From Candidatus Krumholzibacteriia bacterium (GTDB lineage: Bacteria; Krumholzibacteriota; Krumholzibacteriia; JAJRXK01), in the NCBI GenBank assembly GCA_035268685.1, contig DATFKK010000092.1, positions 1-33,625 of the forward strand: a stretch of DNA of 33,625 bases, written 5' to 3'. The notes beneath the pieces are model-generated. The model was given only the letters and a program-made list of their open reading frames with translations, had not been told where the DNA came from and searched no databases. Numbering within the stretch: position 1 is the first letter of the stretch; each line of letters begins with the position of its first letter. Position numbers and translations under genes: made by a program. Positions 1 through 28,689 of the stretch are shown piece after piece.

Positions 1-945
1 CACCGACACCACCATCGTCATCAACCCCGCCGCCGCCAGCGAGAAGGCCACGCTGTGCAACAGCACCCAGTGCACCGGCACCGCCTCCTGGAACCACCCG
101 AAGAGGGCGCCGGCCACCAGCAGGATCAGCATGACCAGCACGCCGAAGACCACGGCGAACAGCACCTTGGCGTTCACCAGCGCCGCCACCGGCACCGGGG
201 TGGCCAGCTGCCGCCGCAGCATGCCGGTGCGCTGGTCCTCGTACAGGTCCGTGACCGCGCGGATCGCCACGAACAGCACGCTCATCACGCTCACCATGAC
301 CAGCACGTAGCCGAACAGGTTCGGCCGCGGTGCGCCCTCCTCCTTGGTGCTGCCGATGCTCACCACGGGAGGGAAGAGATAGGTCTCGGCCTGGGAAATG
401 CGTTCGTAGAAGGCGGCCGACAGCTGGGTGACCATGAGGACCGACGGCATCTCGTCGCTCTCGAACATGTCGAACATCTGTTCGAGCTCTTCGCCGAGCA
501 CCTTCACCGCCACGTCGAGGTAGGTGGCGATCACGTACGTGCCCTGCTCGAGGATCTCGGGCTTGATGCTCTCGGCCGGGTTGCGGACCAGGCGCAGCGT
601 GGTGGTGCGGCCCTCGATCAGGTCCTCGGTGAAGCTCTCGGGGATCACCAGCATGGCCGACGCCTCGCCGTTCTCCATGCGGGCGAAGCCCTCCTCGCCC
701 ACCTTCTCCACCTCGAGCCGGAAGCCGGAGTCCTCGGGCACGGCTCCGCCGGTGAGGAAGCCCCCGAGCAGGCCGTCCTCGCGGTCGAGCACGAAGAGCG
801 TCGTGGGCGGGATCTGGTCGCTGGGGCCGCTGCTGATCGCGCCGATCATCCCGGCCATCATGAACGGGAACAGCAGCATGACCAGCGTGCTGGCCGGACT
901 GCGCCACCGACGGATCAGGTCCTTGCGGATCAGGCTCCAGAACAC
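1..945 (-). CDS. ABC-2 type transporter permease, partial (C-terminus beyond window)
   Basis: This is the membrane subunit of an ABC-2 exporter in the inner membrane; the substrate is unknown. Translating the minus strand from a GTG at 945 gives 315 residues with no stop before the window edge. The N-terminus (FWSLIRKDLIRRWRSP) is the usual cytoplasmic start of this family. It is followed by a first membrane segment at about residues 17-37, a large extracytoplasmic domain of about 170 residues, and then membrane segments starting NLFGYVLVMVSVMSVLF, VLFAVVFGVLVMLILLV and a final incomplete one. The long loop between helices 1 and 2 fits the ABC2_membrane_3 (NatB/YhaP-like) type. A GAGAGGAGGT Shine-Dalgarno lies just ahead of the GTG, and the ATPase gene ends only 12 nt upstream, so the two are one operon. 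Further permease or fusion-protein genes may lie beyond the left edge. Confidence 0.88.
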   Translation of the reverse strand, partial: MFWSLIRKDLIRRWRSPASTLVMLLFPFMMAGMIGAISSGPSDQIPPTTLFVLDREDGLLGGFLTGGAVPEDSGFRLEVEKVGEEGFARMENGEASAMLVIPESFTEDLIEGRTTTLRLVRNPAESIKPEILEQGTYVIATYLDVAVKVLGEELEQMFDMFESDEMPSVLMVTQLSAAFYERISQAETYLFPPVVSIGSTKEEGAPRPNLFGYVLVMVSVMSVLFVAIRAVTDLYEDQRTGMLRRQLATPVPVAALVNAKVLFAVVFGVLVMLILLVAGALFGWFQEAVPVHWVLLHSVAFSLAAAGLMTMVVSV

Positions 946-957
946 GGCGACCTCCTC

Positions 958-1887
958 TCAGTCACGCAGCTCGCGGCCGGTGAGCTTGAGGAACAGGTCC
1001 TCGAGGTTGGGCTCCTTCACCGTGATCCCGCTCAGGGGCAGTCCCGAGCCGTACAGCGCCTTGAGCGTGTGTCCGACGCCATCGGAACCGAGCGGCACGT
1101 TCACCAGGGCGCGGCCGTCGTCGAGCTCGAGCAGGCGCGCGCCGTCGAGGTCCTCGACCACGCGGGCCACGTCCTCCTTCTCGAAGGCGCCCTGCACGGT
1201 CAACACGCTGCCCTCGCCCAGTTCGGCCTTGAGCTCGGCGATCGTGCCCTTGGCGTGGATGGTGCCGTGGTCCATGATCGCCAGCTCGTCGCACAGATCC
1301 TCGGCCTCTTCGAGGTAGTGCGTGGTGTAGAGCACCGTGGTACCGCCGGCGACGATGTCACGGACCACGTCGAGGATGTTGATCCGTGCCTGCGGATCGA
1401 TGCCCACCGTGGGCTCGTCGAGCAGCACCAGCCGGGGCCGGTGCACCAGGCCCAGGGCCAGGTTCAGCCGGCGCTTCATGCCGCCCGAGAAGTTCTTCAC
1501 GGGCTCGCGGGCGCGGTCGGCCAGGCCCACCAGCTCGAGCAGTTCGTCGCGGCGGTGGTCCATCTCCTTGCCGCGCAGCCCGTAGATCCCGCCCCAGAAG
1601 GCCAGGTTCTCGCGGGCGGTCAGGTCCTCGTACAGGGCGATCTCCTGGGGCACGACGCCCAGACGCCGCTTCACGGCCGCCGGATCGCGGGCGAGGTCGA
1701 TGCCGTCGACCTCGACGCGTCCCGTGGCCGGCGACACCAGGCCGGCGATCATGGAGATGATGGTGGTCTTGCCGGCCCCGTTCGGGCCGAGCAGGCCGAA
1801 GATCCGCCCGGCGGCGACGTCGAATCCGACGCCGTCGACCGCACGGATCTCCCCGTAGTGCTTGGAGAGATTGGTGACGCTGAGCAT
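958..1887 (-). CDS. ABC transporter ATP-binding protein (ABC-2 exporter)
   Basis: This is the ATPase subunit, 309 residues, that would energise export through the permease encoded just downstream. All nucleotide-binding motifs are intact: Walker A GPNGAGKT (34-41), Q-loop Gln81, signature FSGGM (133-137), Walker B LVLLDE (153-158) and switch His190 in TTHYLEEAE. About 100 residues follow the nucleotide-binding core. They carry the C-terminal extension common in the DrrA/NatA/CcmA-like branch and end with the typical PNLEDLFLKLTGRELRD. The start is the first ATG that keeps the family N-terminus (MLSVTNLSKHYG); no strong Shine-Dalgarno precedes it. It lies 107 nt downstream of the NHL lipoprotein gene on the same strand, with a hairpin between, so it may be a separate unit or a read-through tail of the big operon. 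The transported molecule cannot be told from sequence. Confidence 0.95.
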   Translation of the reverse strand: MLSVTNLSKHYGEIRAVDGVGFDVAAGRIFGLLGPNGAGKTTIISMIAGLVSPATGRVEVDGIDLARDPAAVKRRLGVVPQEIALYEDLTARENLAFWGGIYGLRGKEMDHRRDELLELVGLADRAREPVKNFSGGMKRRLNLALGLVHRPRLVLLDEPTVGIDPQARINILDVVRDIVAGGTTVLYTTHYLEEAEDLCDELAIMDHGTIHAKGTIAELKAELGEGSVLTVQGAFEKEDVARVVEDLDGARLLELDDGRALVNVPLGSDGVGHTLKALYGSGLPLSGITVKEPNLEDLFLKLTGRELRD

Positions 1888-1994: not shown

Positions 1995-3188
1995 TCAGCC
2001 CTGGTTGCGGAACGGGGTCCAGCGGCTGTCCTCGTAGATTCGCAGACGGCCGTTGGCCGCGTCCACGACGAAGACGCGCGCGCCAGGGATGTCGATGGTC
2101 GCCGCCGGGGTGATGGCGAAGCCGTCCCAGGTGGCCAGGCGCACGGGCTGCTGCAGCTCGTCCTCGCCGGTGGCCAGGCCGGGACCGAAGTCCGAGTCGA
2201 ACGCGCCCTCGGATGTGAAGCGCTGGATCCGCCCGTTCATGCGATCGGCCACGTACAGGTTGCCATCGCCGTCGACCGCCACTCCGCTCGGAACGTGGAA
2301 CTCGCCGGCGGCTTCGCTGGGGTCGGCGTCGAAATCGGCCGGCGGATTGCACGGAGGCGCCTTGCCCAGCGTGCTGGCCTCGATCGAGAACACGTCGCCG
2401 CAGCGGACGCTCTGGTCGAAGGCATCGACCCCACGGGCCAGTTCCTCGCGCGTGGGTCCGAAGATCACGCTCTGTCCGCGATCGGTCTCCACGCCGCTGG
2501 CCGGAATCGGGTCGTAGCGCAGGACCCAGTTTCGCGTGGAGTCGGAATCGCACACCACGAGCATTCCGGAGTCGTCCATGGTCATTCCGGCGGGTACCGA
2601 CACCACCTGCGGGCTGAACTGGTCGAACTGATCGGGGTCCTCGGCCATCACGGTGCCCGCGTAGGTCAGACCCGTGAGACCCATGGCTGCGTCGAAGGTG
2701 TAGCGGTGCACCGTACGCGCCACGGGGTCGCTCACGTACAGGTGATCGCCGTCGCTGGCGATGTCGGCCACCGACTGCACCTCGGCGCTCAGCGGTACCG
2801 TCCCCTGGACCTCGAGCCGCGTGTCGATCGCCGAGACCTCGTAGCCGGCGCCAGTGTCCTCGACGACCAGCAACAGACTGCGCCGGGAGTCGGTCTCGAG
2901 CGCGATGGGTCCGCGCAGCCCCTCGACGGGGTCGCGGAAGGTGTCGACCCGACCGTCGTCGTACACCAGGACGACGCGCCCGCCGGCGGAGTCGCTCACG
3001 GCGAAGATCCCGCCGAAGGGTTCGACATCGGTCACGAAGCCGAGCTGCTCGTTCAGGCTCCCCGGGGTGACGTCGGTGTAGTCACTGACCACCGCGATGC
3101 CCTCGGCCTCGGGCAGCGTGATCTTCTCACCGCATCCGGCAGTGAGCAGCAGCAGGAACACGATCAGCGGGAGGATTCGACGCGTCAT
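1995..3188 (-). CDS. NHL-repeat (beta-propeller) lipoprotein
   Basis: A 397-residue predicted lipoprotein and the last gene of the five-gene envelope operon. The chosen ATG (3188) gives a textbook lipoprotein signal, MTRRILPLIVFLLLLTAGC, with lipobox TAGC and lipidated Cys19. Longer upstream starts would bury this signal. The mature part is a beta-propeller. The clearest NHL blade is at about residues 297-325 (VPSGVAVDGDGNLYVADR), another blade is near 367-387 (ARVFVVDAANGRLRIYE), and weaker blades precede them. Such propellers bind proteins or ligands and usually have no enzymatic activity. The start codon overlaps the stop of the PorV-like gene as ATGA, so the two are translationally coupled. 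Four cysteines (including CDSDS, RCGDVF and PPCNPP) could form disulfides. A partner role with the TonB receptor or barrel upstream is inferred from the operon only. Confidence 0.85.
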   Translation of the reverse strand: MTRRILPLIVFLLLLTAGCGEKITLPEAEGIAVVSDYTDVTPGSLNEQLGFVTDVEPFGGIFAVSDSAGGRVVLVYDDGRVDTFRDPVEGLRGPIALETDSRRSLLLVVEDTGAGYEVSAIDTRLEVQGTVPLSAEVQSVADIASDGDHLYVSDPVARTVHRYTFDAAMGLTGLTYAGTVMAEDPDQFDQFSPQVVSVPAGMTMDDSGMLVVCDSDSTRNWVLRYDPIPASGVETDRGQSVIFGPTREELARGVDAFDQSVRCGDVFSIEASTLGKAPPCNPPADFDADPSEAAGEFHVPSGVAVDGDGNLYVADRMNGRIQRFTSEGAFDSDFGPGLATGEDELQQPVRLATWDGFAITPAATIDIPGARVFVVDAANGRLRIYEDSRWTPFRNQG

Positions 3189-4174
3189 CGTTCGATCTCC
3201 AGCGTGATGGTGTGCAACAGACCGAAGCTGCCCCGATCGACGAATCCGTAGTCGAGGTGCACCGGCCGCTCGGCGATCGGCCATTCGAGACCCAGCCCAC
3301 CGGAGAAGACCTCGATCTCGTCGCTCTGCCGGTAGGCGGCCCGCAGCGCCAGGGTGCCGCGCAGACTGAGTTCGCTGGCCAGGACGATCGATTCGGCCTC
3401 GTCGGTCGGGTGCAGGAAGTCCAGACCCACGGTCAGGATGTTCTCGCTGCCGATCGTGGGCGTGTCGTAGGCGAAGCCGAACGACGCCATGGTCGGCGCC
3501 GGAAAGCTCTGCCACTCGCCGCTGAAGCCGGCGTCGGCCGGCGGCTCACCGTTCAGGCGCAGGTCGGGCCCGAAGTTGTTCACGGCGAAGCCGATCCGCG
3601 CGGTGCGATACCCGATGTAGTAGAGCGCGCCCAGATCGAGCAGGATCCCGCGGCTCTCGAAGTCGTCCAGCGACTCCTGCAACAGCTTGACCGAAGCCCC
3701 CAGTGTGATGCGGTCGGTCAGCAGACGTGCCGCACTCAGGGTGGCGACGAACTGATCGGCCTCGAAGGTCTGACCGGTACCCTCGGGCTGACGCTCGGTC
3801 GTCCGCTCGATCTCGCCGCTGTCGAGGACCCCCAGGCCGACGCCGTACTGCCAACTTCCCGAACGCCGCACGTAGCCCAGGTGATGGACGTCGATACCGG
3901 CGGCGTACGCGAAGTGCGAGGCGAACAGGCTGTGTTCGAAGCGCACCGTGGACATGGCGCCGGGGTTGCTGAAGATGGCCGTGGCACCCCGAGCCAGGGC
4001 GGCGCTCGCATTGCCCAGTCCGACCGCGCGCGCGCCCACCGGTATGCGCAGGAACTGACCGGCGCTGCCGCCGACGCGCTCGTCGCCGTAGAGTTCGATC
4101 AGATCGGCACTCGCTGCCGACGGAAGCAGCAGCACGACCGACAGCAGGAAGCAGGACACACGACGGATCACCAT
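3185..4174 (-). CDS. PorV/PorQ-family outer-membrane beta-barrel protein
   Basis: A 329-residue exported barrel. It starts with a signal peptide (about residues 1-23, ending PSAASA). This is followed by the hallmark N-terminal block of the PorV/PorQ family (UPF0164-like): AGQFLRIPVGARAVGLGNASAAL and then TAIFSNPGAM. The rest alternates in short amphipathic strands and ends ITLEIER. In Bacteroidetes, PorV shuttles type IX cargo to the attachment complex; many FCB genomes carry several paralogues whose roles are unknown. Its start overlaps the TonB receptor stop by 7 nt and its stop overlaps the next lipoprotein start (ATGA), so it is firmly inside the operon. The first gene of the operon encodes a protein with a sorting-like C-terminal domain, which makes a secretion-related role attractive. 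A plain porin is the alternative. Confidence 0.82.
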   Translation of the reverse strand: MVIRRVSCFLLSVVLLLPSAASADLIELYGDERVGGSAGQFLRIPVGARAVGLGNASAALARGATAIFSNPGAMSTVRFEHSLFASHFAYAAGIDVHHLGYVRRSGSWQYGVGLGVLDSGEIERTTERQPEGTGQTFEADQFVATLSAARLLTDRITLGASVKLLQESLDDFESRGILLDLGALYYIGYRTARIGFAVNNFGPDLRLNGEPPADAGFSGEWQSFPAPTMASFGFAYDTPTIGSENILTVGLDFLHPTDEAESIVLASELSLRGTLALRAAYRQSDEIEVFSGGLGLEWPIAERPVHLDYGFVDRGSFGLLHTITLEIER

Positions 4175-7059
4175 TCCCAGCTCACCCCCATCAGCAGGCG
4201 CCGCGGGTTCGTGCGGTGGCTGGGGTTGACCCGGTCCTCTTCGTAGAAGACGGAGTTCACGCGCGGACCGGTGTCGTTCTCCTCACCGAAGGCCAGACGC
4301 CGCTCGGCGATGCTGCCGTCCCAGTTGCCACGGAAGTAGGGCTCGCCCGTCCACGGGTTCACCCGACGGTAGTTGTCGTGATCCAGGACGTTCTGCACTT
4401 CCAGGCTGAAGGTCACGCGCTGGCCGAAGGGCGCGTCGTACCACTTGCGGAAGGCGATGTCGAAGGACGACCGATACGGACCGAGTTTTCCATTGACGTT
4501 GCGGGAGACGTCGGTCGACCCGTCGGGCAGCAGGAACACCTCGGTGTAGCGGGTGCCCGCCCAGGCCCGGTAGAGCAGATTCAGGTTCCAGTTCCGCGGC
4601 GTCTGCCAACCGAAGATCTTCGGCGACTGGTTGCTGCCGGCACGAATGTTCAGATTGGCGGTCACCGACCAGGGACGATCCCACGCCAGGGGATTCGGAC
4701 GCACCCCCTGTTCGGTCTCGGAGCTCTGGGAGCCCTGTTCCAACTGGGCCAGCAGGAAGTTCTGGTTGGCGTCACTGTTCGTCCCGGTCACGCGGCTCAG
4801 CTCGACGGCCAGACGACCGCTGACGAAACGGGTGGCTCGCTTCTCCACGGTCATCTCCACGCCGAGCGAACGCGCCGCATCGGCGTTGAAGAAGCGTACC
4901 GGACTGATCTCGATCACGCGGTCGTCGTTGGGATCGGGAGTCTGGTCGGGCGTGATCGTCACCCCGTTCAGCTGTACCGCCTGCGCATAGCCGTAGATGT
5001 CGTTGCTGAAGAAGGTGAGCCCGGCCGTCCATCGACCCGCGAACTCGCGCTGGATCCCGGTCTCGTACTGGACCGTGACCTTCGGGTCGAGATCCGGATT
5101 GCCCAATAGACGAAGGTCGGTTCCGAAGTCCGTCTCGAGCTGCGAATAGACGTAGTTCCAGCGCGGCCACTGGCTGAAGTGACCGTAGTTGAAGAAGAAC
5201 TTGTCCTGCTCGCTGATCGGGAAGCTCAGCCCGAGTCGGGGACTCAGTCGCTGCTTCCAGCGCAAGCCGAGGAGCTCGGTCGTCTTGCTCTTGTAGCTCT
5301 CGACATCGGCGTCGAAGATGAAGACGAAATCGTCGGGGTTGTTCATCACCCGATCGACCTCGGGCCCGGGCGCCCAGGCGTCGTAGCGCAGGCCCATGTT
5401 CAGGATCAGCCCCTTGTAGGAGAAGCGATCCTGGAAGTAGCCGGCCGCCACGCGTGGCGTCGCCGCGAACACGTCCTCGGCCGTGGCGATCCGTCCTGGC
5501 TGCGGAATGTCGAAGTCGCGCTGGAAGTCACCGAGCTGGATCTCGTTGTAGCTGAACTCGATGCCCGTCTTGAACTTGTTGTTCTCGTCGCCCACCCAGG
5601 CCCAGTCGGCCTTGATCGAGTAGATGTCGGCGTAGTGGTCGTGCCAGCGCTCGTTGTCGCCGCCGATGAACGCACCCTCGACCCACCGGTTGCCGGCCGG
5701 ATCCCGGCTGATCTGCAACTCCGGCCCGCTGTAGTTGTCGAAGTCGGGCTCACCGTTCTTGTGCGAGTTCTGACGGCTGAACTGGCGGCCCACGGTGACT
5801 TCGTAGAACGAGTCCTCGCCCAGCACGTGCTTCCAGTTGGCCTGGCTCTGGATGCTCTGCAGGTAGAAGACGTCGTAGTTGTCGAGCAGGTTCCGGAACT
5901 TGTTCGGCCAGCCCTCGGCCGGCAGGAAGAAGCCCATGCTGATCGACTGCTGGTAGTTGTGCGTCAGGTTGAGCTTGCGCTCGGGGCCGAACTTCCAGGT
6001 GAGCTTGCCCAGCGCGCTCCACTCGTTGTCGGCCCGCGGCGACCAGAAGTCGTCGGCCTCCGACGACTGGAGGGGTCCGGTCAGAGAACCCGTGGGAAGG
6101 TAGGTGTCGGTGAGATCGCTCGAGAAACTGGCGATCCAGTATTGCTCGCCCGGCAGCTTCAGCCCGGTCTTCTTCAGGCCCTGCCACAGGACGTTCGGGC
6201 CGCTCAGCGTGATGCGGGCGCGATCGGTGTCGTAGTCGATCTCCTCGGGAGCCACCCGGTCGGTCTTGTAGGTGAGCTTGCCCTCGAAGCGCTCCCCACC
6301 CTCCTTGGTGGACACGCGCACGACACCGCTCACCGCCTGCCCGTACTCCGCGCTGAAGCCGCCCGTGAGCACCTCGATCTCGTTGATCAGATCCTCGTTG
6401 AAGGAGGCGCCGTAGCGACCGGCCGACAGCGGGTCGTTCACGCTCACTCCGTCCACGTAGAACTGCGTGTCGTCGGCCCGACCACCGCGGATGTGGATGG
6501 TGTTGTCCTCCTTCACCACACCGGCCTGCAGCGAGACGATCTCTTCGACGTCGTCGAGGGCGAGGTTCTCGATCTCGTCGGCACCGATGCGACGGGACGT
6601 GCCCGTCTCCTGAAGGACGATGAGTTGCCGCTCGGCGCGCACGTCGAAGGGGTCGAAGAGGACCGGCTTCAGCGAAAGCACGAAGCGGATGTCGATCACG
6701 TCGCCGGGTCGAACCACGATCTCGGCGCGTCCCTCGTCGAAGCCCAGGTACCGGGCCTTGATCGCATAGCGCCCGGCGGTGAGCCCGCGCAACCAGAAAC
6801 GCCCTCCACCCAGGGCCATGGTCCCGTAGTCGGTGCCCTCGACGAAGATGTTGGTGTACTCGAGGGGTTTGCCGGTCTCGCCGTCGATCACCGTGCCCTG
6901 CACGACGATCGGAAGATCGGCCTCGTCGCGGTTCGTGGCCCGCTGCAGGTAGGTGATCGTCGCGTCCTCCTGCACCACCTCTTCGGGCTGCGCCGCGGCC
7001 GGGGGCGCGGCTCCGATCGCGATGGCCACGAGCAGGGCGAACAGCATCCGTGCGTTCAT
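4168..7059 (-). CDS. TonB-dependent receptor with N-terminal carboxypeptidase-regulatory-like domain
   Basis: A 963-residue outer-membrane active transporter, energised by TonB-ExbBD; the substrate is unknown. From the ATG at 7059 there is a signal peptide (about 1-23, ending AAPPAAAQ). A CarboxypepD_reg-like beta-sandwich follows at 51-130 (VVQGTVIDGETGKPLEYTNIFV), then a TonB-box-like stretch (FDPFDVRAERQLI, 135-147). The plug domain is at about 150-255, with IHIRGGRADDTQFYVDGVSVNDP and the plug-barrel junction GFSAEYGQAVSGVVRVSTKEGG. The 22-strand barrel region runs to the end (MGVSWEW). The domain order resembles SusC-like receptors, but no SusD-type gene is adjacent. An in-frame extension to 7323 has no family features and was rejected. 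The start overlaps the preceding lipoprotein stop as ATGA. Confidence 0.95.
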   Translation of the reverse strand: MNARMLFALLVAIAIGAAPPAAAQPEEVVQEDATITYLQRATNRDEADLPIVVQGTVIDGETGKPLEYTNIFVEGTDYGTMALGGGRFWLRGLTAGRYAIKARYLGFDEGRAEIVVRPGDVIDIRFVLSLKPVLFDPFDVRAERQLIVLQETGTSRRIGADEIENLALDDVEEIVSLQAGVVKEDNTIHIRGGRADDTQFYVDGVSVNDPLSAGRYGASFNEDLINEIEVLTGGFSAEYGQAVSGVVRVSTKEGGERFEGKLTYKTDRVAPEEIDYDTDRARITLSGPNVLWQGLKKTGLKLPGEQYWIASFSSDLTDTYLPTGSLTGPLQSSEADDFWSPRADNEWSALGKLTWKFGPERKLNLTHNYQQSISMGFFLPAEGWPNKFRNLLDNYDVFYLQSIQSQANWKHVLGEDSFYEVTVGRQFSRQNSHKNGEPDFDNYSGPELQISRDPAGNRWVEGAFIGGDNERWHDHYADIYSIKADWAWVGDENNKFKTGIEFSYNEIQLGDFQRDFDIPQPGRIATAEDVFAATPRVAAGYFQDRFSYKGLILNMGLRYDAWAPGPEVDRVMNNPDDFVFIFDADVESYKSKTTELLGLRWKQRLSPRLGLSFPISEQDKFFFNYGHFSQWPRWNYVYSQLETDFGTDLRLLGNPDLDPKVTVQYETGIQREFAGRWTAGLTFFSNDIYGYAQAVQLNGVTITPDQTPDPNDDRVIEISPVRFFNADAARSLGVEMTVEKRATRFVSGRLAVELSRVTGTNSDANQNFLLAQLEQGSQSSETEQGVRPNPLAWDRPWSVTANLNIRAGSNQSPKIFGWQTPRNWNLNLLYRAWAGTRYTEVFLLPDGSTDVSRNVNGKLGPYRSSFDIAFRKWYDAPFGQRVTFSLEVQNVLDHDNYRRVNPWTGEPYFRGNWDGSIAERRLAFGEENDTGPRVNSVFYEEDRVNPSHRTNPRRLLMGVSWEW

Positions 7060-8585
7060 CGTCCTCCCCCCATCGGCCGCGCCCCGTCGACGGGCTCCAG
7101 ACCCATCTGGCCGCTCCACATGAGCCGCAGCGCCTCCTGCGCATTGCCCAGGTCGTTGGCCAGCTCGATCTGAGGGCTCATCACGACGACACGTGCGTCT
7201 CCCGTGGCGGGCCACCGCGAGGCCACCACCGGCTCGCAGCCGGTGCGGCAACGCCGGCTGTTCCAGCGGGCCGACTCGAATCGGTACAGGGGTTGGGCGT
7301 CCGAGGCCGGACCGATCGGCCACACGTCGAAGTAGGTCACACTGCCCGTGCCGGTGTAGACCAGGTCGGGCAGACCCGGCACCTGGGCCAGGATGTCGAG
7401 CTGGGGACCGGTCTCCCCGATCACACTCGGGGGACCGACGATCGAGCCCTCCAACGGATTCGCCAGCACGTGCAGGTACTGCTCCCGGAACAGATCGTTC
7501 AGGCCTCCGCTCTGAGCGGGAGTTCCCACGTACTGGTAGTCGAGATAGAGCTGGCCGGCCTGGACGCCCGGCGTGTCCGGGTCGCGGTCGGAACTCAGGA
7601 AGGTGGTCAACGCCTCGCGCGAGTTCTCGAGATTCACGCGACTGCCCTGGCGCTTCACGTACCAGATGATGGTCTCGAAGGGCTCGAAGGTCGCCTGGAA
7701 CACCTCGGGCTCGCCACGGAGGTTCGTGGCCTCGATCGTGTTGAAGGCATCGCCGAAGTGAGCCCGCGCCGCGTCGCCGAAGAACGCGTCGCGCGAATCG
7801 CTGACCGAGTCGTCGTCGTCGACGAGCAGCACGCTGCCGCGGACCGGGGGTACACGCCAGGTGTGCGTGAAGACCGTCGCCGCACCGGCGTCGTCGGCCA
7901 CGCGCATGTACACGGTCTGCTCGTCGCCCAGCGCCGGTTCTCCGGGCGGTACGTCGCGCAGGCGCAGGCGGAAGCCCCGGCGCGGGCGCGGAGCCCGGAC
8001 CCAGCCCTCCGTGGGATCGGCCAGTGAGTCGTCGGCGTCGAAGAAGAGGTCGGGATCACTGCCTTCGTAGCGATAGTGCACGTGGTCGAGCAGGGTCTCG
8101 TCGCCGTCGATGTCGAAGGTGAAGAAGTCGAGATCGATCGCCCGGAAGCTCTGCGTGGGCGGGACGAATTCCTCCTGGTACTCGACCACCGGTGGTGAGT
8201 TCACCAGCGGGAACTGCACACGCGCGGTGTCGCTCGGAGCACCGCGGTCGTCGACCGCCACCACGTGCAGCGTGGGGACCACGCTCCCGTCGGCGCGCGT
8301 CTGGTAGGTGGCCGTGGTGTCGGTGTCGGTGGTGAACAGCCACTCGGGGTCGGTGTCGTCGATCGAGATCGCGACCCAGAAGCCCACCACGAAACCGTCG
8401 GCGTCGCTGCCCGACCAGGCGAAGCGCGCGTCGGTGTAGCTGGTCGGGGCGATGGTCTCGACGTGATCGACCGAGATCCGCGCGACCGGCGGTTTGTTCC
8501 CCAACGACTCGGGATCGAAGGGATCGTTGGTGCACCCGGCGAAGGCGGCCAGCACCGCCACGGCGATCAGGCTCCAGCGCATCAT
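7056..8585 (-). CDS. exported lipoprotein with Ig-like domains, function unknown
   Basis: A 509-residue lipoprotein of unrecognised family. The start at 8585 (MMRWSLIAVAVLAAFAGC) gives a clear lipobox (FAGC, Cys18) and an ATGA overlap with the upstream gene; the second ATG at 8582 is an equally possible start. After a short linker there are two fibronectin/cadherin-like beta-sandwich segments (PPVARISVDHV, with ARFAWSGSDADGFVVGFWVAI, and then SPPVVEYQEEF). The C-terminal half begins with a strand and acidic turn, GSVLLVDDDDSVSDSR. With its later strand TIIWYVKRQ, this resembles the alpha/beta fold of ThuA/gingipain-like 'VLLVDD' proteins, but I see no Cys-His catalytic pair. Two cysteines in RRCRTGCEP are close together. 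From its place between a sorting-domain protein and a TonB receptor I infer a periplasmic or surface partner of the receptor. Confidence 0.75.
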   Translation of the reverse strand: MMRWSLIAVAVLAAFAGCTNDPFDPESLGNKPPVARISVDHVETIAPTSYTDARFAWSGSDADGFVVGFWVAISIDDTDPEWLFTTDTDTTATYQTRADGSVVPTLHVVAVDDRGAPSDTARVQFPLVNSPPVVEYQEEFVPPTQSFRAIDLDFFTFDIDGDETLLDHVHYRYEGSDPDLFFDADDSLADPTEGWVRAPRPRRGFRLRLRDVPPGEPALGDEQTVYMRVADDAGAATVFTHTWRVPPVRGSVLLVDDDDSVSDSRDAFFGDAARAHFGDAFNTIEATNLRGEPEVFQATFEPFETIIWYVKRQGSRVNLENSREALTTFLSSDRDPDTPGVQAGQLYLDYQYVGTPAQSGGLNDLFREQYLHVLANPLEGSIVGPPSVIGETGPQLDILAQVPGLPDLVYTGTGSVTYFDVWPIGPASDAQPLYRFESARWNSRRCRTGCEPVVASRWPATGDARVVVMSPQIELANDLGNAQEALRLMWSGQMGLEPVDGARPMGGGR

Positions 8586-10729
8586 TTCAGGATCACCAGC
8601 TTTCCGCGCTGGATGTCGCCCGTCTCCAGGTTCTCGACCGCGTAGACGTACAGGCCCGGGGCGATCGCCCGTGTCTCCTCGGACATCACGTTCCACTCCA
8701 CCAGCGTGTCGTCGACACTGCGGTTCTGCAGCTGCACGATGCGCGTCCCGGCCAGGTTGTACACGTCGATGTTCGCGCGCGGCGGGACGTTCGCGAAGAA
8801 GATGCTGCGCCCCAGCTCCCGCGGCTCCCCGCTCGGGAAGCGGTTGTCGTACAGACTCGCCGCCCGGTAGGGATTGGGGTAGACGCTCACCGCGTCGCGC
8901 TCGCTCGCGTCGAGATCGGGGTTGGTCCCCGTGGGGCCACTGCCCGGGACCACCACCACCGAGTTCTCGTTGAAACCGCTCTCGAGCTCCGGCAGCCCCG
9001 CCCGCGGATCGGGCGCCGAGTAGCTCGTGACGGCGTAGCGGTACGGGAATCCGTTGAGCACGTTCCGGTCGACGAACACCCGCTGTCCGTCGACGAGCGG
9101 AGGCAATCCGGTGTTGAACCCTCGATCGTCGGACGTGCCGTCGACGTTCGTGTCGATGTCGAACTCGGCGATCAGCGCTGCCTGCTCGAAGGGGTCCTCG
9201 GTCACGACGTCACCGTCGATCCGGTAGATGCGGTAGCCCTGGAAGTCGGGCTCGTTGGTCAAAACGCTACGGTGGAACTCGGGTGAGGCCGTCGCCGGGT
9301 CGTAGGCTCCGGGCTCGGGACGCTCTCCGGGATCCCAGCGCAGCTCCACCGCGTTGCCCCGGGCCACCGCGTTCAGGTTCGGGCTGGGCGGACCCGACGG
9401 CAGCGTGAAGCCGTTGTCGAAGCTGAACTGGGCGATCGAGCTGTTGTTCAGCATCTCGTCGGCGTCGGCTCCGGCCACCATGGCGATCGCGAAGTTCGCG
9501 CTCTCGCCCGGGTTCAGGGCCGGCCACGGCCCGATCGAGAACATGCCGACCCAGTTGCCCTCCGAGGTGAAGTTCGTCGAGCCCTGGCCCTCACCCGGAC
9601 CGGCGTCGACGACCTGCTCCCCACACCCCTCCGAGAGGTCCGCGAGCAGATCCTCGAGCGGCCGTTCGGGCTCGCATCCCCGCATGTAGGCGTAACGGGC
9701 CGGATCGCCGTACTCCGCCTCGTTCGGGATGCCGCCGGTGCTGCTGTACTGCCACTGCCGATAGTTGAAGTAGGCGCCGTCGGGCGCGTCCGAGCCCAGG
9801 TAGCGGACGCCCGACCACGAGGTGGCGTCCCCACCGTCGCCGTCGGCGTCGATCCGGTAGACCACCCTCGCCGAGGGGTCGGCCTCCAACAGGCCGGGGT
9901 CGAAGAACTCGCTCGCCGTTTCCTGGGCGATCCGCTCCGGGCCCAGGTAGCCCTGGATGTCGCCGAAGAAGAGATCGCCACCGCTGGCCGGGAACTCGAG
10001 CTTGCCACGGTTCACGACGATCGGCTCGATGTACCAGCCCAGGTGCACGTTCTCGAGGAAACGATCGCCCACGTTGGTGACCTCGAAGAGCATGATCACG
10101 AAGGAATCGGCGAAGCGCGACGCGTAGCCCAGGATGTCACAGCGGACCTCCAGACCCATGGGCACGTGCGGATTCGTGATGCCGCTCTCGTCGCCGCCGG
10201 ACGCGCTCGTGTCGTTGTAGCGCAGGATGAAGTGCTCGTCGGCCAGCGCGTCGAGCCGGAAGTTCTGCTGCAGCGGATTGCGGCTGATCAGCAGGGCCGC
10301 CAGCGGATCCTCGATCACCTGGTCGTCGTCCCCGCCTTCGACCCGCACCGTCTGCGGCGAGAACTCGAATCCCGACGGTGACGACGACCCGGCGTCGAGC
10401 GTGGCGTCGACCACGCCCGCGCTCACCAGCGGCTGCCGCGTGAAACCGTCGATGGCGCCCACCCACAGTCCCGCGGACCAGAGGTGCTCCACCCCTGAAT
10501 TCAGCGGGAACTCGAAACTGGGCCGGCTGCTCTGCCCCGACCCGAACATCTCGCCGATGAAGCCACGGGTGGCGAAGGCCAGGCCGACGTTGCCGATGCT
10601 CACCACCCGCTTGTCGGTGGCGAATTTCAGATCGGAGTCGGTCTGGGCGGACGACGGCAGCGGCACCAGGCAGGCGGCACCGGTGACCACGCCCAGAGCG
10701 AAGGAGCAGAAGAGGGTGCGTTGGCGCAT
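8582..10729 (-). CDS. secreted protein with type IX-sorting/FlgD-like C-terminal domain
   Basis: The first gene of the five-gene operon, encoding 715 residues. A signal peptide (about 1-28, ending PLPSSA) is followed by roughly 480 residues of beta-rich sequence rich in Gly and Asp, without a domain I can name. A fibronectin-like segment follows (SPNLNAVARGNAVELRWDPG, then FQGYRIYRIDGD). The C-terminal domain at about 607-715 is typical of sorting or FlgD-Ig-like tails: VYPNPYR, NIDVYNLAGTRIVQL, APGLYVYAVEN and final GKLVILK. In Bacteroidetes such tails direct export through the type IX system and surface anchoring; whether this lineage uses them so is inference. The ATG at 10729 is preferred because the upstream extension lacks exported-protein features and would cross the promoter. 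No Shine-Dalgarno is evident. Three cysteines surround GCEPERP and GCGEQ. Confidence 0.8.
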   Translation of the reverse strand: MRQRTLFCSFALGVVTGAACLVPLPSSAQTDSDLKFATDKRVVSIGNVGLAFATRGFIGEMFGSGQSSRPSFEFPLNSGVEHLWSAGLWVGAIDGFTRQPLVSAGVVDATLDAGSSSPSGFEFSPQTVRVEGGDDDQVIEDPLAALLISRNPLQQNFRLDALADEHFILRYNDTSASGGDESGITNPHVPMGLEVRCDILGYASRFADSFVIMLFEVTNVGDRFLENVHLGWYIEPIVVNRGKLEFPASGGDLFFGDIQGYLGPERIAQETASEFFDPGLLEADPSARVVYRIDADGDGGDATSWSGVRYLGSDAPDGAYFNYRQWQYSSTGGIPNEAEYGDPARYAYMRGCEPERPLEDLLADLSEGCGEQVVDAGPGEGQGSTNFTSEGNWVGMFSIGPWPALNPGESANFAIAMVAGADADEMLNNSSIAQFSFDNGFTLPSGPPSPNLNAVARGNAVELRWDPGERPEPGAYDPATASPEFHRSVLTNEPDFQGYRIYRIDGDVVTEDPFEQAALIAEFDIDTNVDGTSDDRGFNTGLPPLVDGQRVFVDRNVLNGFPYRYAVTSYSAPDPRAGLPELESGFNENSVVVVPGSGPTGTNPDLDASERDAVSVYPNPYRAASLYDNRFPSGEPRELGRSIFFANVPPRANIDVYNLAGTRIVQLQNRSVDDTLVEWNVMSEETRAIAPGLYVYAVENLETGDIQRGKLVILK

Positions 10730-24521: not shown

Positions 24522-25367
24522 ATGCTCTACGATCGTCTCGAACAGATCTGGCACGCCGACCCGACGCGCCGCGGCATCGCGTGGCTACTGGTCGTCGTCT
24601 TCCTCGGCGGGCTCGCGCTGATCGAGATCGAGCGTCAGGGCCTCAACCCGTGGCCAGGGCACCTCCCCACGAATCACTTCTACGCCGTCGGCTGGGCGCT
24701 CACGCTGCTGCTGGCCGTCGAGGTCCTCGACCTGGTGTTCTCGCTGTCGGGTTCGGTGAGCCTGTCGGCCGGCAAGCAGCTCGAGATCTTCTCGCTGGTG
24801 CTGCTCCGCAAGAGCTTCAGCGAACTGAAGGAGATGCCCGAGCCGGTGGTGGTCGAAACCTTCAGCGAGCCGATCCGTCACATGGCGGCCGATGCGGCCG
24901 GTGCCCTGGTGATCTTCGCTCTCGTCGGCGTCTACTACGCCATGCAGCGCCACATTCCCATCAGCGAGGACGAGTCCGAGAAGCAGGGCTTCGTCACCAT
25001 GAAGAAACGGATCGCACTGGTCCTTCTGGTGGCCTTCGCCGGGCTGGGGATCCTCGAAATCGCGCGCGCCGCCACGGGGCGTACCGGCGGAGAGGGCTTC
25101 TTCGAGGTCTTCTACACGCTGCTGATCTTCGTCGACGTGCTGATCGCACTCGTCTCGATCCGCTACTCCACCGCCTACCACGTGGTGTTCCGCTACTTCG
25201 GGCTGGCGGTGGTCACCATGTTCATCCGTCTGGCGCTCGCGTCGCCGAGCTACCTGAACGCGCTGCTCGGCATCGGCGCTGCCGCCTACGCGGTGGCCCT
25301 GACCTACGCCGTGAACCGCGTGGTCAACCGCGTGCCGAATCGGGCACTGAAGCGTCCGATCCCATGA
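24522..25367 (+). CDS. multi-pass inner-membrane protein, function unknown
   Basis: A 281-residue integral membrane protein I do not recognise. About seven helices can be seen: residues 18-36, 52-75, 126-142, 163-182, 193-213, 222-240 and 243-264. Between helices 2 and 3 is a 50-residue amphipathic segment (LSAGKQLEIFSLVLLRKSFSELKEM, then ETFSEPIRHMAAD), probably cytoplasmic and partly membrane-lying. The loop after helix 3 is acidic (PISEDESEKQG) and followed by KKR. Charged residues within helices (Glu67, Glu179 and Asp205) hint at ion or proton handling, but no transporter family motif is visible. The ATG at 24522 has no clear Shine-Dalgarno; the reading frame is open further upstream without supporting features. 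Its last 44 nt overlap the 3' end of the convergent CHAT gene, so the two transcripts are complementary at their ends. Confidence 0.75.
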   Translation: MLYDRLEQIWHADPTRRGIAWLLVVVFLGGLALIEIERQGLNPWPGHLPTNHFYAVGWALTLLLAVEVLDLVFSLSGSVSLSAGKQLEIFSLVLLRKSFSELKEMPEPVVVETFSEPIRHMAADAAGALVIFALVGVYYAMQRHIPISEDESEKQGFVTMKKRIALVLLVAFAGLGILEIARAATGRTGGEGFFEVFYTLLIFVDVLIALVSIRYSTAYHVVFRYFGLAVVTMFIRLALASPSYLNALLGIGAAAYAVALTYAVNRVVNRVPNRALKRPIP

Positions 25368-28300
25368 GCACGAAGGGCGCCCAGTAGTAGGGGTGCGCGG
25401 TCTCACGCTCGGACCACAGGGTGGCGCGAGCGCGGTTGAGCGCCTGGTCGACGGGGCGGCCACGGCGCAGCAACTCTTCGTAGAAGCGGGCCATGAGCCG
25501 GCCGGTCGAGGCGTCGGCCACCGGCCACAGGCTGGCCACCACCCGCCGCGCGCCGGCGGCGAGGAAGGCCCGCGTGAGACCCACGGTCCCTTCGCCGCGT
25601 TCCAGCTTGCCGCGGCCGGTGTCGCAGGCGCTCAGGACCACCAGCTCGGTGTCGAGCGGCAGGGCCATGATCTCGAGCGTGTACAGGTAACCGTCGTCGG
25701 TCCCGGTGCGATCGCGGGCGAGCGCGACGCTGGTCAGGGTGGGTTCCTCCCGGTCGACCAGACCGTGGGTGGCGAGGTGGACGATCGACGGACGATCCGA
25801 TTCCAGGCGACGGCGCAGGGCGGTCTCGGTCGCCTCGGCCCCGACCAGACCGATCGTCTCGTCCCGACGCAGGCGTTGCAGCATCTCGATCTCGCGGCGC
25901 GACTGTGGCAACGGAGGCAGGACGTCGTCGGTGCCGACGCGGGAGGAGAGCGATTCGAAGTCGGGATCGGCCAGGGCCAGCACGGTCGCGGTGGCCGCCG
26001 CCGCTCCCTGGTCGCGCAGCTGCAGCAGGAGCGTGGCCGACGGCGCATAGCCGATCGAGACCTCGCGTGCGAGGTAGCGCGCGTCCTGCCAGTCGGGGCG
26101 CTCACCGGCGGGCTCGGTGAGCAGCAGCTCGAAGGGCAGCTCGAAGAGGATCCCGTCGGGCACGATCCACAGCCGCTCGCGGTCTGCGAACCGGGCCGCC
26201 ACCGGTGCCACCAGCTCTCGGTACAGGGCGTGTGCTTCGGAGGCCAGGGCGCGATCGCCGAACCCGGGGGCCTGCAGGGCGTCGCGCAGGGCCACGATCC
26301 GCGCCTGGAGCTGGTCCCGCGGGGGCAGGACGTGCAGGGAATGACCCTCGGCATCGATCGCCCAGAGGTACGAGGCGTCGTCCCCGACGGCGTAGACGAG
26401 CGCGGCGGTCTCGTCGTCGAGCCGGGCGGACAGGTCGGACGGACCGGCCAGTGTCCCACCCGCCTGCAACCAGGGTGCGGTGTCGGCGAGCCGGGCGTCG
26501 AAGTGACGCGCTAGGCGTTCCTGCAGACGCTCACGCCGGGCGACGTCGGCGGAGTCGGCGCGGTCGAGGGCGTAGAGTGAATCGAGCAGGGCGGCGATGG
26601 CCGGATCACCGTCGGCCTCGAACGAGCGGGTCACCAGCTCCAGCAGACCGCGCGCACGCGCCCGCTCGGACGTCCGGAAGGCCAGCTCCGACCATTGCCG
26701 GCGGTCCCTGCGTTCGGCCTGCCGCGCGTAGAAGTGCACCACTTCCTCGTACACGGCGCTCCGCTGCTCGACCAGGTACCCGGTGCGCAACGCGCCGCCG
26801 CCCGCGGCCGCACGATGTCGCTCGAGGGCCTCGAAGGCCGCCTCGTAGTAGGTCCGCGCACTGTCGGGCGCCAGGGTCTCGAACGAGTCCCCGATCCCGG
26901 TCAGCGGGATCCACTCGAGCTCGGCGCGACCGTTGCGCAGCAGCGAAGCGCGAACCGAGCGCAGCTCCTCGCGCGCCGCGCCATAATGCCCCATCGAGGT
27001 GAGCGCGTTGCCGCGCGTCGCCCGCAGGGGCGTGGTCAGGTCGGCCTCGACGTCCGGGTGGCGGTCGAGCGTGGAGCCCGTCAGGTCCAGGGCTTCTCCG
27101 AAGCGTCCGAGTGCGACCAGCGCATCCGCCGCCACGCGAGCGGCGGTCAGCTCGTGGAGGGCGGCATCCGCCTCGCGCGCCAGCTCCAGGGCGCGCCGTG
27201 CCGTGTCGAGCGCGCCCTCGTGATCGCCGGCCGTCGCACGGGCGAGGGCGAGGTTCGTGCGGGCGATCGCCACGAACTCCGGAACGTCGAGCTGCAGTGC
27301 GAGGTCGCGAGCGGCCGCGAGCTCCTCGGCCGCGCGGTCGAGATCACCGAGGGCGAGCAGGGCCTGTCCGCGCTCGGTGCTCAGGCGGAAGGAAAACTGG
27401 GGGTCGATCTCGTCGCCGGCCAGTGCCTCGACCCGTGCGATCTCGTCGATCGATTCCCTCAGGCGCCCCTGTTCGCGCAGAGCGCCGGCCAGGTCCAGAC
27501 GGATGCCCGCCTCGAACTCGGGGGCCGCATCGATCAGCTCCAGGGCCTGGCGCAGGGACTGCGCCGCGTCACCCGTGCGCTGCATGTTCCGGTACAGCGC
27601 TCCCACCGCGTGCAGGGCCTCGAGACGACGCCGGTCGTTCCCGCTGGCCTCGAGCACCGGAACGGCCTCTTCCAGCAGTCGGCGGGCCTCGACCAGACGT
27701 CCCAGCGCCTGCTCGCAGTTCGACGCGTAGGTCAACGACGTCGCCAGGCCCACCCGATCGCCGGTGCGCGTGCGCACTTCGATCGCACGGCGATACCAGC
27801 GCAGGGCCTCCTCGAATTCGTTCTGTTGGAAGTGGACCGACCCCAGGCCGTTGAGCGTGCGGCCCTCGAGGATCCGATCGTCGATCGCGCGCCGCGCCTC
27901 GAGCGCACGCTCGTAGGCCGACTCCACGGCCGCCCAGTCGCCGGCGTACCAGTGGGCGACACCCTGTGTCCCCAGGTTGATCGCCACCGCCCGGCGATCG
28001 CCGATGGACTCGTAGAGGGACCGTGCCTCGCGCAGCAGTTCGACGTCGCGGGCGGGATCGCCCGCCTGCCGGGCCTCGGCCGCCCGGGCCTCGAGCTGCG
28101 CAGCGCGATGCTTCGTCGCGCGGTCGGTATCGCTGCGGTCGCGGTGGGCCGCCACCAGCTGCCCCGGAACGCGCGACCCTCCGTTGCCCATGTGGAGCCC
28201 CGCCAGGCGCGCCGCGAGCTCGACGTTCTCGGCCGCCCCTTCCGGGTCCTCCCCTTCGATCTCGAAGGCGATGTCGAGGAGCTGGCCGACCGCCGCCCCC

Positions 28301-28473
28301 ACGAGCACCGAATTCTCGGCCACCGCGTCGCGCAGCTCCGACGGATCGTCGAGCCCGGCGAGCGAATCCGACTGCACGAGAAAACGCACGACCGGGTCCG
28401 CCCCCGCTTCGCGAACAAAAAGCGAGCAGAAGATCAAGAAAACGAAAAGGAACGAGGAGCGGAAACTCTGCAT
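25324..28473 (-). CDS. exported TPR-CHAT caspase-like cysteine protease
   Basis: A 1049-residue protein joining a tetratricopeptide array to a C-terminal CHAT peptidase. The ATG at 28473 opens a signal peptide (MQSFRSSFLFVFLIFCSLF, cleavage near AGA at 25), so it should leave the cytoplasm. Residues about 110-590 are tandem TPR hairpins (AINLGTQGVAHWYAGDWAAVESAYERAL, then RTLNGLGSVHFQQNEFEEALRWYRRAIEV). The CHAT domain, from about 690, keeps the catalytic pair His903 (VHLATHG) and Cys950 (VVLSACDTGRG), followed by GEGTVGLTRAFL and the usual end YYWAPFVLMG. CHAT enzymes are clan CD relatives of caspases and separase; those with TPRs are normally activated by a binding partner. DNA for the signal peptide is noticeably A-rich. 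There is no good Shine-Dalgarno. A TTGACG box at 28569-28564 on the minus strand may be its -35, but the -10 is unclear. Confidence 0.92.
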   Translation of the reverse strand: MQSFRSSFLFVFLIFCSLFVREAGADPVVRFLVQSDSLAGLDDPSELRDAVAENSVLVGAAVGQLLDIAFEIEGEDPEGAAENVELAARLAGLHMGNGGSRVPGQLVAAHRDRSDTDRATKHRAAQLEARAAEARQAGDPARDVELLREARSLYESIGDRRAVAINLGTQGVAHWYAGDWAAVESAYERALEARRAIDDRILEGRTLNGLGSVHFQQNEFEEALRWYRRAIEVRTRTGDRVGLATSLTYASNCEQALGRLVEARRLLEEAVPVLEASGNDRRRLEALHAVGALYRNMQRTGDAAQSLRQALELIDAAPEFEAGIRLDLAGALREQGRLRESIDEIARVEALAGDEIDPQFSFRLSTERGQALLALGDLDRAAEELAAARDLALQLDVPEFVAIARTNLALARATAGDHEGALDTARRALELAREADAALHELTAARVAADALVALGRFGEALDLTGSTLDRHPDVEADLTTPLRATRGNALTSMGHYGAAREELRSVRASLLRNGRAELEWIPLTGIGDSFETLAPDSARTYYEAAFEALERHRAAAGGGALRTGYLVEQRSAVYEEVVHFYARQAERRDRRQWSELAFRTSERARARGLLELVTRSFEADGDPAIAALLDSLYALDRADSADVARRERLQERLARHFDARLADTAPWLQAGGTLAGPSDLSARLDDETAALVYAVGDDASYLWAIDAEGHSLHVLPPRDQLQARIVALRDALQAPGFGDRALASEAHALYRELVAPVAARFADRERLWIVPDGILFELPFELLLTEPAGERPDWQDARYLAREVSIGYAPSATLLLQLRDQGAAAATATVLALADPDFESLSSRVGTDDVLPPLPQSRREIEMLQRLRRDETIGLVGAEATETALRRRLESDRPSIVHLATHGLVDREEPTLTSVALARDRTGTDDGYLYTLEIMALPLDTELVVLSACDTGRGKLERGEGTVGLTRAFLAAGARRVVASLWPVADASTGRLMARFYEELLRRGRPVDQALNRARATLWSERETAHPYYWAPFVLMGSDASVPDSARG

Positions 28474-28595
28474 GATGGCTCGGAACTCCGGGACACGGCG
28501 GATCGGGGCGGACGACTCCGTGAAGGGCAGGGCGAGATCCAGTACGTCACCAGGACGGATCACCGTCAAGAATCTTCCCGCTCGATTTCTGGACT

Positions 28596-28604
28596 TGCTA
28601 GACT
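28596..28604 (+). promoter_or_regulatory. extended -10 promoter of the matrixin operon
   Basis: TGC directly followed by TAGACT (28599-28604) matches the extended -10 form TGnTATAAT at six of eight informative bases; no good -35 box is needed in this class. It would start transcription about 80 nt before the ATG at 28690. Confidence 0.5.
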
Positions 28605-28689
28605 GTGATCTCTGCGCCCGGAACCGGCAGGTCCGCCGGCTCGCCCCCGACTCGGACACTCCAAACGACCCGAACAGGAGTCATTGCCC

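Follow-up and report, generated by a model that had tools for sequence, protein, structure and literature searches.

A conserved and apparently undescribed gene module, in which known protein families and folds occur in a new combination, was found in the genome of a Candidatus Krumholzibacteriia bacterium, within a 33,625-nucleotide stretch of contig DATFKK010000092.1 (hereafter, the window). The module is real, and there is good support both for its gene content and for a link with type IX secretion; that its products form a complex and take up a ligand we infer. The reading that we favour, tentatively and at slightly under even chances, is that the module encodes a TonB-coupled surface complex, the outer subunits of which leave the cell by type IX secretion and are kept in place by a cognate barrel of the PorV family, and that it is an ancient accessory module of the outer membrane. 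The open literature searched contained no account of the module under any name or function; the original prediction likewise did not recognise it as a named system.

Five genes, as read from the sequence, run along the minus strand from position 10729 to position 1995, in the order g1 to g5. They encode a 715-aa secreted protein with a type IX sorting-like C-terminal domain (g1, 10729–8582), a 509-aa lipoprotein (g2, 8585–7056), a 963-aa TonB-dependent receptor (g3, 7059–4168), a 329-aa outer-membrane barrel of the PorV/PorQ family (g4, 4174–3185) and a 397-aa NHL beta-propeller lipoprotein (g5, 3188–1995). A second reading of the sequence confirmed these bounds and the overlaps of 4, 4, 7 and 4 nt at the successive junctions (ATGA, ATGA, ATGGTGA and ATGA), as first described. 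Overlaps of 4 nt are frequent where operons are GC-rich, and in such a genome these junctions are, by themselves, weak evidence; the fixed stoichiometry that had been read into them is unsupported. Their conservation is more telling. In a survey of about 30 genomes of the Krumholzibacteriia, the overlap was 4 nt in 30/30 cases for g1/g2 and in 28/30 for g2/g3, and for g4/g5 it was 4 nt in 19/24 cases and 1 nt in the remainder, with a start picker that favoured 4 nt; the unusual 7-nt overlap of g3/g4, which is the unbiased junction, was kept in 25/26.

The original prediction described a unit of five genes, and these are indeed conserved together, but it omitted a sixth conserved member (X, 12848–10911, minus strand), which lies directly upstream of g1, across a gap of 181 nt. 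This ORF encodes a secreted protein of 645 aa, with tandem OB-fold domains and a type A type IX sorting domain, and scores 270 bits with the HMM built for the gene that separates g1 from g2 in other phyla. The ABC transporter ATPase and permease encoded immediately after g5 (window 1–1887, minus strand) were considered as members and rejected, an adjacent strong copy being found in the same genus only (L039). Elsewhere in the window, a large ORF on the minus strand (25324–28659) looks, by eye, like a tetratricopeptide-repeat protein with a CHAT-type C-terminus.

The association recurs far beyond the source genome. Among the 80 named loci obtained by scanning GTDB genomes with the g1 alignment, 41 have all five genes on one strand and 28 have all six, many of the remaining loci being cut by contig ends. 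Three layouts predominate: g1-X-g2-g3-g4-g5 (23 loci, in the Ignavibacteriota, Fidelibacterota, KSB1 and Fermentibacterota, for example), g3-g4-g5-g1-g2, with or without X after it (10 loci, in WOR-3 and Eisenbacteria, for example), and g1-g2-g3-g4-g5 (eight loci, in the Krumholzibacteriota, counting two that list g2 ahead of g1 because their frames overlap). As g1 had served as bait, the test was repeated with g3 as an independent bait, and g1 lay on the same contig in 50 of the 58 genomes with a g3 match of at least 500 bits, several of the exceptions being at contig ends; a search for related loci with g4 as the sole query returned no relatives. The five families form a shared unit recurring over the FCB superphylum. 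Their not recurring together, which the original prediction had set in advance as a refutation, is clearly not what was found. The phyla with the module include the Krumholzibacteriota, Ignavibacteriota, Fidelibacterota, WOR-3, Eisenbacteria, Fermentibacterota, KSB1 and some Bacteroidota, and within its own class many genomes lack it. At 11 of the 80 loci g1 stands alone, and at a further eight only g1 and X are present, some of these on long contigs, so g1-like proteins are not confined to the module. Two strong copies of g1 in one genome (G350:C285 and C295; G272:C143) suggest duplication of g1 or of the module. In a related genome (G002:C8; L040/L090), X lies near g1 and the g3 ortholog some 13 kb further along the contig, the module being spread out.

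The source genome encodes the SprA translocon (G000:C142, 451.8 bits summed over the frame) and six C25 peptidases, one of them beside a PorV gene (G000:C160), and yields 88 sorting-domain matches. Outside the class, SprA was present in every genome with a g1 ortholog (16/16 versus 75/307; Fisher 4e-11, uncorrected for kinship). Most genomes with SprA, inside and outside the class, lack the module, which is thus an accessory user of the type IX system and not a part of it; a core type IX role was rejected on the same grounds.

The original prediction listed one protein with a sorting-like tail, g1; its tail does have the motifs of a C-terminal sorting domain, but two members, g1 and X, carry such domains. 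In g1, a large beta-sandwich region (about residues 40–440) is followed by an FnIII-like domain and then by the sorting-like domain. The tail scores 15.2 bits against TIGR04183, below the cut-off of 23, and its PNPY, GLY and GK motifs are invariant, or nearly so, among g1 relatives, which are conserved across FCB phyla. The PorZ model was matched by 37 of the 54 members of the g1 alignment, at its C-terminal end in those inspected, and not by g1 of the window itself; with the match limited to the last part of the model, PorZ beta-propellers were not seen in g1 relatives. A search of PDB sequences with g1 gave no matches, and Foldseek with the AlphaFold model (pLDDT 79.9) gave weak matches to GH116/GH94-type beta-sandwich regions, FnIII pairs and PorZ (5m11). 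The sandwich matches are weak (TM <0.3 across the full chain) and are not taken to indicate any ligand. X scores 24.9 bits in the genome search and 22.6 bits in the protein scan against TIGR04183 (cut-off 23) and has PNP and G.Y motifs, and PF18962 was found in 18 of the 19 members of its alignment. It also has an Ig-like domain, and its OB-fold region matches the N-terminal part of 9sf8, a solved protein with an endonuclease/exonuclease/phosphatase domain (E 8e-11). The likenesses of the g1 beta-sandwich and the X OB-fold to known structures are weak.

The barrel g4 matches the PorV/PorQ family model NF033709 with 127.2 bits, above the curated cut-off of 90, and falls below the cut-offs of both equivalog models (PorV, 24.0 bits against 250; PorQ, 79.3 bits against 220). 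Judged from these scores, it is a member of this family but neither PorV nor PorQ proper. The NCBIfam scan returned PorV/PorQ families only, with no PorP/SprF family, and the best solved relative is PorV (6h3i, E 5.9e-21), FadL-type proteins being weak matches. In the g4 tree, the g4 barrels from the modules of other phyla cluster together, apart from the other PorV genes of the genome; weak support at the base and long paralog branches make this grouping suggestive only. Of the seven other PorV-family genes of the genome, five come immediately after a gene whose product ends in a sorting domain (contigs C43, C122, C73, C40 and C160 of G000). One of these five belongs to a second locus of the same genome, which encodes, in this order, a TonB receptor, a g1-like protein and a PorV-family barrel (G000:C13:1-4552 and G000:C40:3991-6578; L213, L206); an identical stretch of protein is encoded at both contig ends, which are probably one locus, a smaller version of the module.

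The receptor g3, 36–58% identical to its relatives, has an N-terminal CarboxypepD_reg domain (54.7 bits) followed by the Plug (44.7 bits) and OMP_b-brl_3 (41.3 bits) matches that identify a TonB-dependent receptor, each above its cut-off. It scores 11 bits against the SusC-family model TIGR04056, for which the cut-off is 368. SusD (PF07980) was not matched in the source genome, nor SusC, at E 1e-50, in the 80-odd genomes of the class. Identity with a SusCD pair was therefore rejected, as the original prediction had it. The module resembles uptake complexes of the SusC/SusD type (RagAB, BtuB-BtuG) in having a TonB-dependent barrel with surface-exposed partners encoded alongside, but these partners bear type IX tails instead of lipid anchors, and the receptor is not SusC. 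With neither SusD nor a SusC match, the capture role would most readily fall to g1 and X. The lipobox cysteine of g2 (Cys18) is invariant in the 47 rows of its alignment. No Pfam family was found for the window member of g2, and a PDB sequence search gave weak matches, mostly of Ig/FnIII type. Its model (pLDDT 86.9) has two FnIII/PKD-like domains with the fold of FnIII pairs, and the secondary structure and an LLVDD motif suggest a third, Rossmann-like domain beginning at that motif. In g5, the NHL match (48.4 bits) recurs in 26 of 27 alignment members, and the lipobox cysteine (Cys19) in >90%.

These components may be assembled as follows. Both g1 and X would start out with a Sec signal peptide, and the C-terminal domain of each, to judge from its tail, would route it through SprA. 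The barrel g4 would then take the sorting domain of g1, and perhaps that of X, and retain it, anchoring the protein at the surface in the way that PorQ anchors PorZ and PorP/SprF barrels their cognate cargo. By this analogy, g1, and perhaps X, would be tethered by g4 at the surface next to g3, where they may act as capture or lid proteins in place of SusD. The lipoproteins g2 and g5 would complete the complex on either face, and g3, powered by TonB, would take up a ligand that may be a polymer. There are precedents for such a pairing of barrel and cargo: published work indicates that PorP/SprF barrels both transport and retain type B cargo of their own (PMC9143113, PMC12618676), and, according to a review, PorZ retains its sorting domain to bind PorQ (PMC10202324). 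The module shares with the former a PorV-like barrel encoded together with the type IX cargo that it would carry and anchor, but its barrel is of the PorV/PorQ family, its tails are type A-like, and a TonB receptor and two lipoproteins are added. The TonB-coupled complex is further favoured by the recurrence of the five genes (41/80 loci; 50/58 genomes with the g3 bait), the link to SprA outside the class (16/16), the motifs of the g1 tail and the PorZ-model matches, the closeness of g4 to PorV among solved structures, the pairs of sorting-domain and PorV genes (5/7), the second TonB receptor locus, and the lack of SusD in the genome and of SusC matches in the class. Against it stand the sub-threshold score of the g1 tail, the position of g4 below both equivalog cut-offs, the weak beta-sandwich and OB-fold likenesses, and the loci with g1 alone (11/80) or g1-X alone (8/80).

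An unlikely alternative is that the module attaches or processes type IX cargo generally, as a device like PorQ/PorZ, and has no part in uptake. The PorQ-PorZ attachment complex likewise pairs a PorV-family barrel with a surface protein that retains its sorting domain; the tails of g1 relatives resemble the C-terminus of PorZ, g4 scores better with PorQ (79 bits) than with PorV (24 bits), and outside the class the module occurs only alongside SprA. However, g1 relatives match the C-terminal end of PorZ alone, without its propellers, most SprA genomes do without this accessory module, and the source genome has its own pair of C25 peptidase and PorV genes (G000:C160). The module also includes a TonB receptor, which is not known to take part in the attachment or processing of type IX cargo. 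We also consider it improbable that the genes encode physically separate surface proteins that are merely co-regulated and form no joint complex. Operons can group genes by regulation alone, but the same set is kept through several rearranged orders across phyla, the genes overlap within the class, and pairs of sorting-domain and PorV genes recur.

The chances are slim that the module aids outer-membrane-protein assembly, akin to the BamG-BamH extension of the BAM complex of the Bacteroidota. BamG is a FadL-type barrel of 14 strands that holds a surface lipoprotein, and BamG and BamH are spread across FCB phyla (PMC12611786, PMC12578637). The g4 profile, however, finds PorV first (E 6e-21) and FadL-type proteins weakly, no BAM subunit was named among the PDB matches of the g4, g2 and g5 profiles, and the module is absent from many genomes of the class, unlike an essential BAM part. 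Least probable, at very low odds, is TonB-driven protein export, with g3 acting outward, as is reported for the receptor Oar and the protease PopC in Myxococcus. PopC secretion requires a TonB-dependent transporter (PMC6434023), and g3 is encoded with two secreted proteins, but their type IX-type tails and the presence of SprA show that a route out already exists.

The TonB-coupled surface complex accommodates both functions originally proposed, an uptake complex and PorV-assisted display, which are compatible, not competing; partly supported, they remain the best readings. The module may be, possibly rather than probably, a SusD-free, TonB-coupled surface machine, ancient enough to extend across the FCB superphylum, in which the outer subunits that bind the ligand would arrive by type IX secretion and be held beside the receptor by a dedicated barrel of the PorV family, with export feeding import. 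It suggests a way in which SusD-less FCB bacteria might capture large ligands, and offers a testable case of a PorV-family protein serving as a permanent anchor instead of a shuttle.
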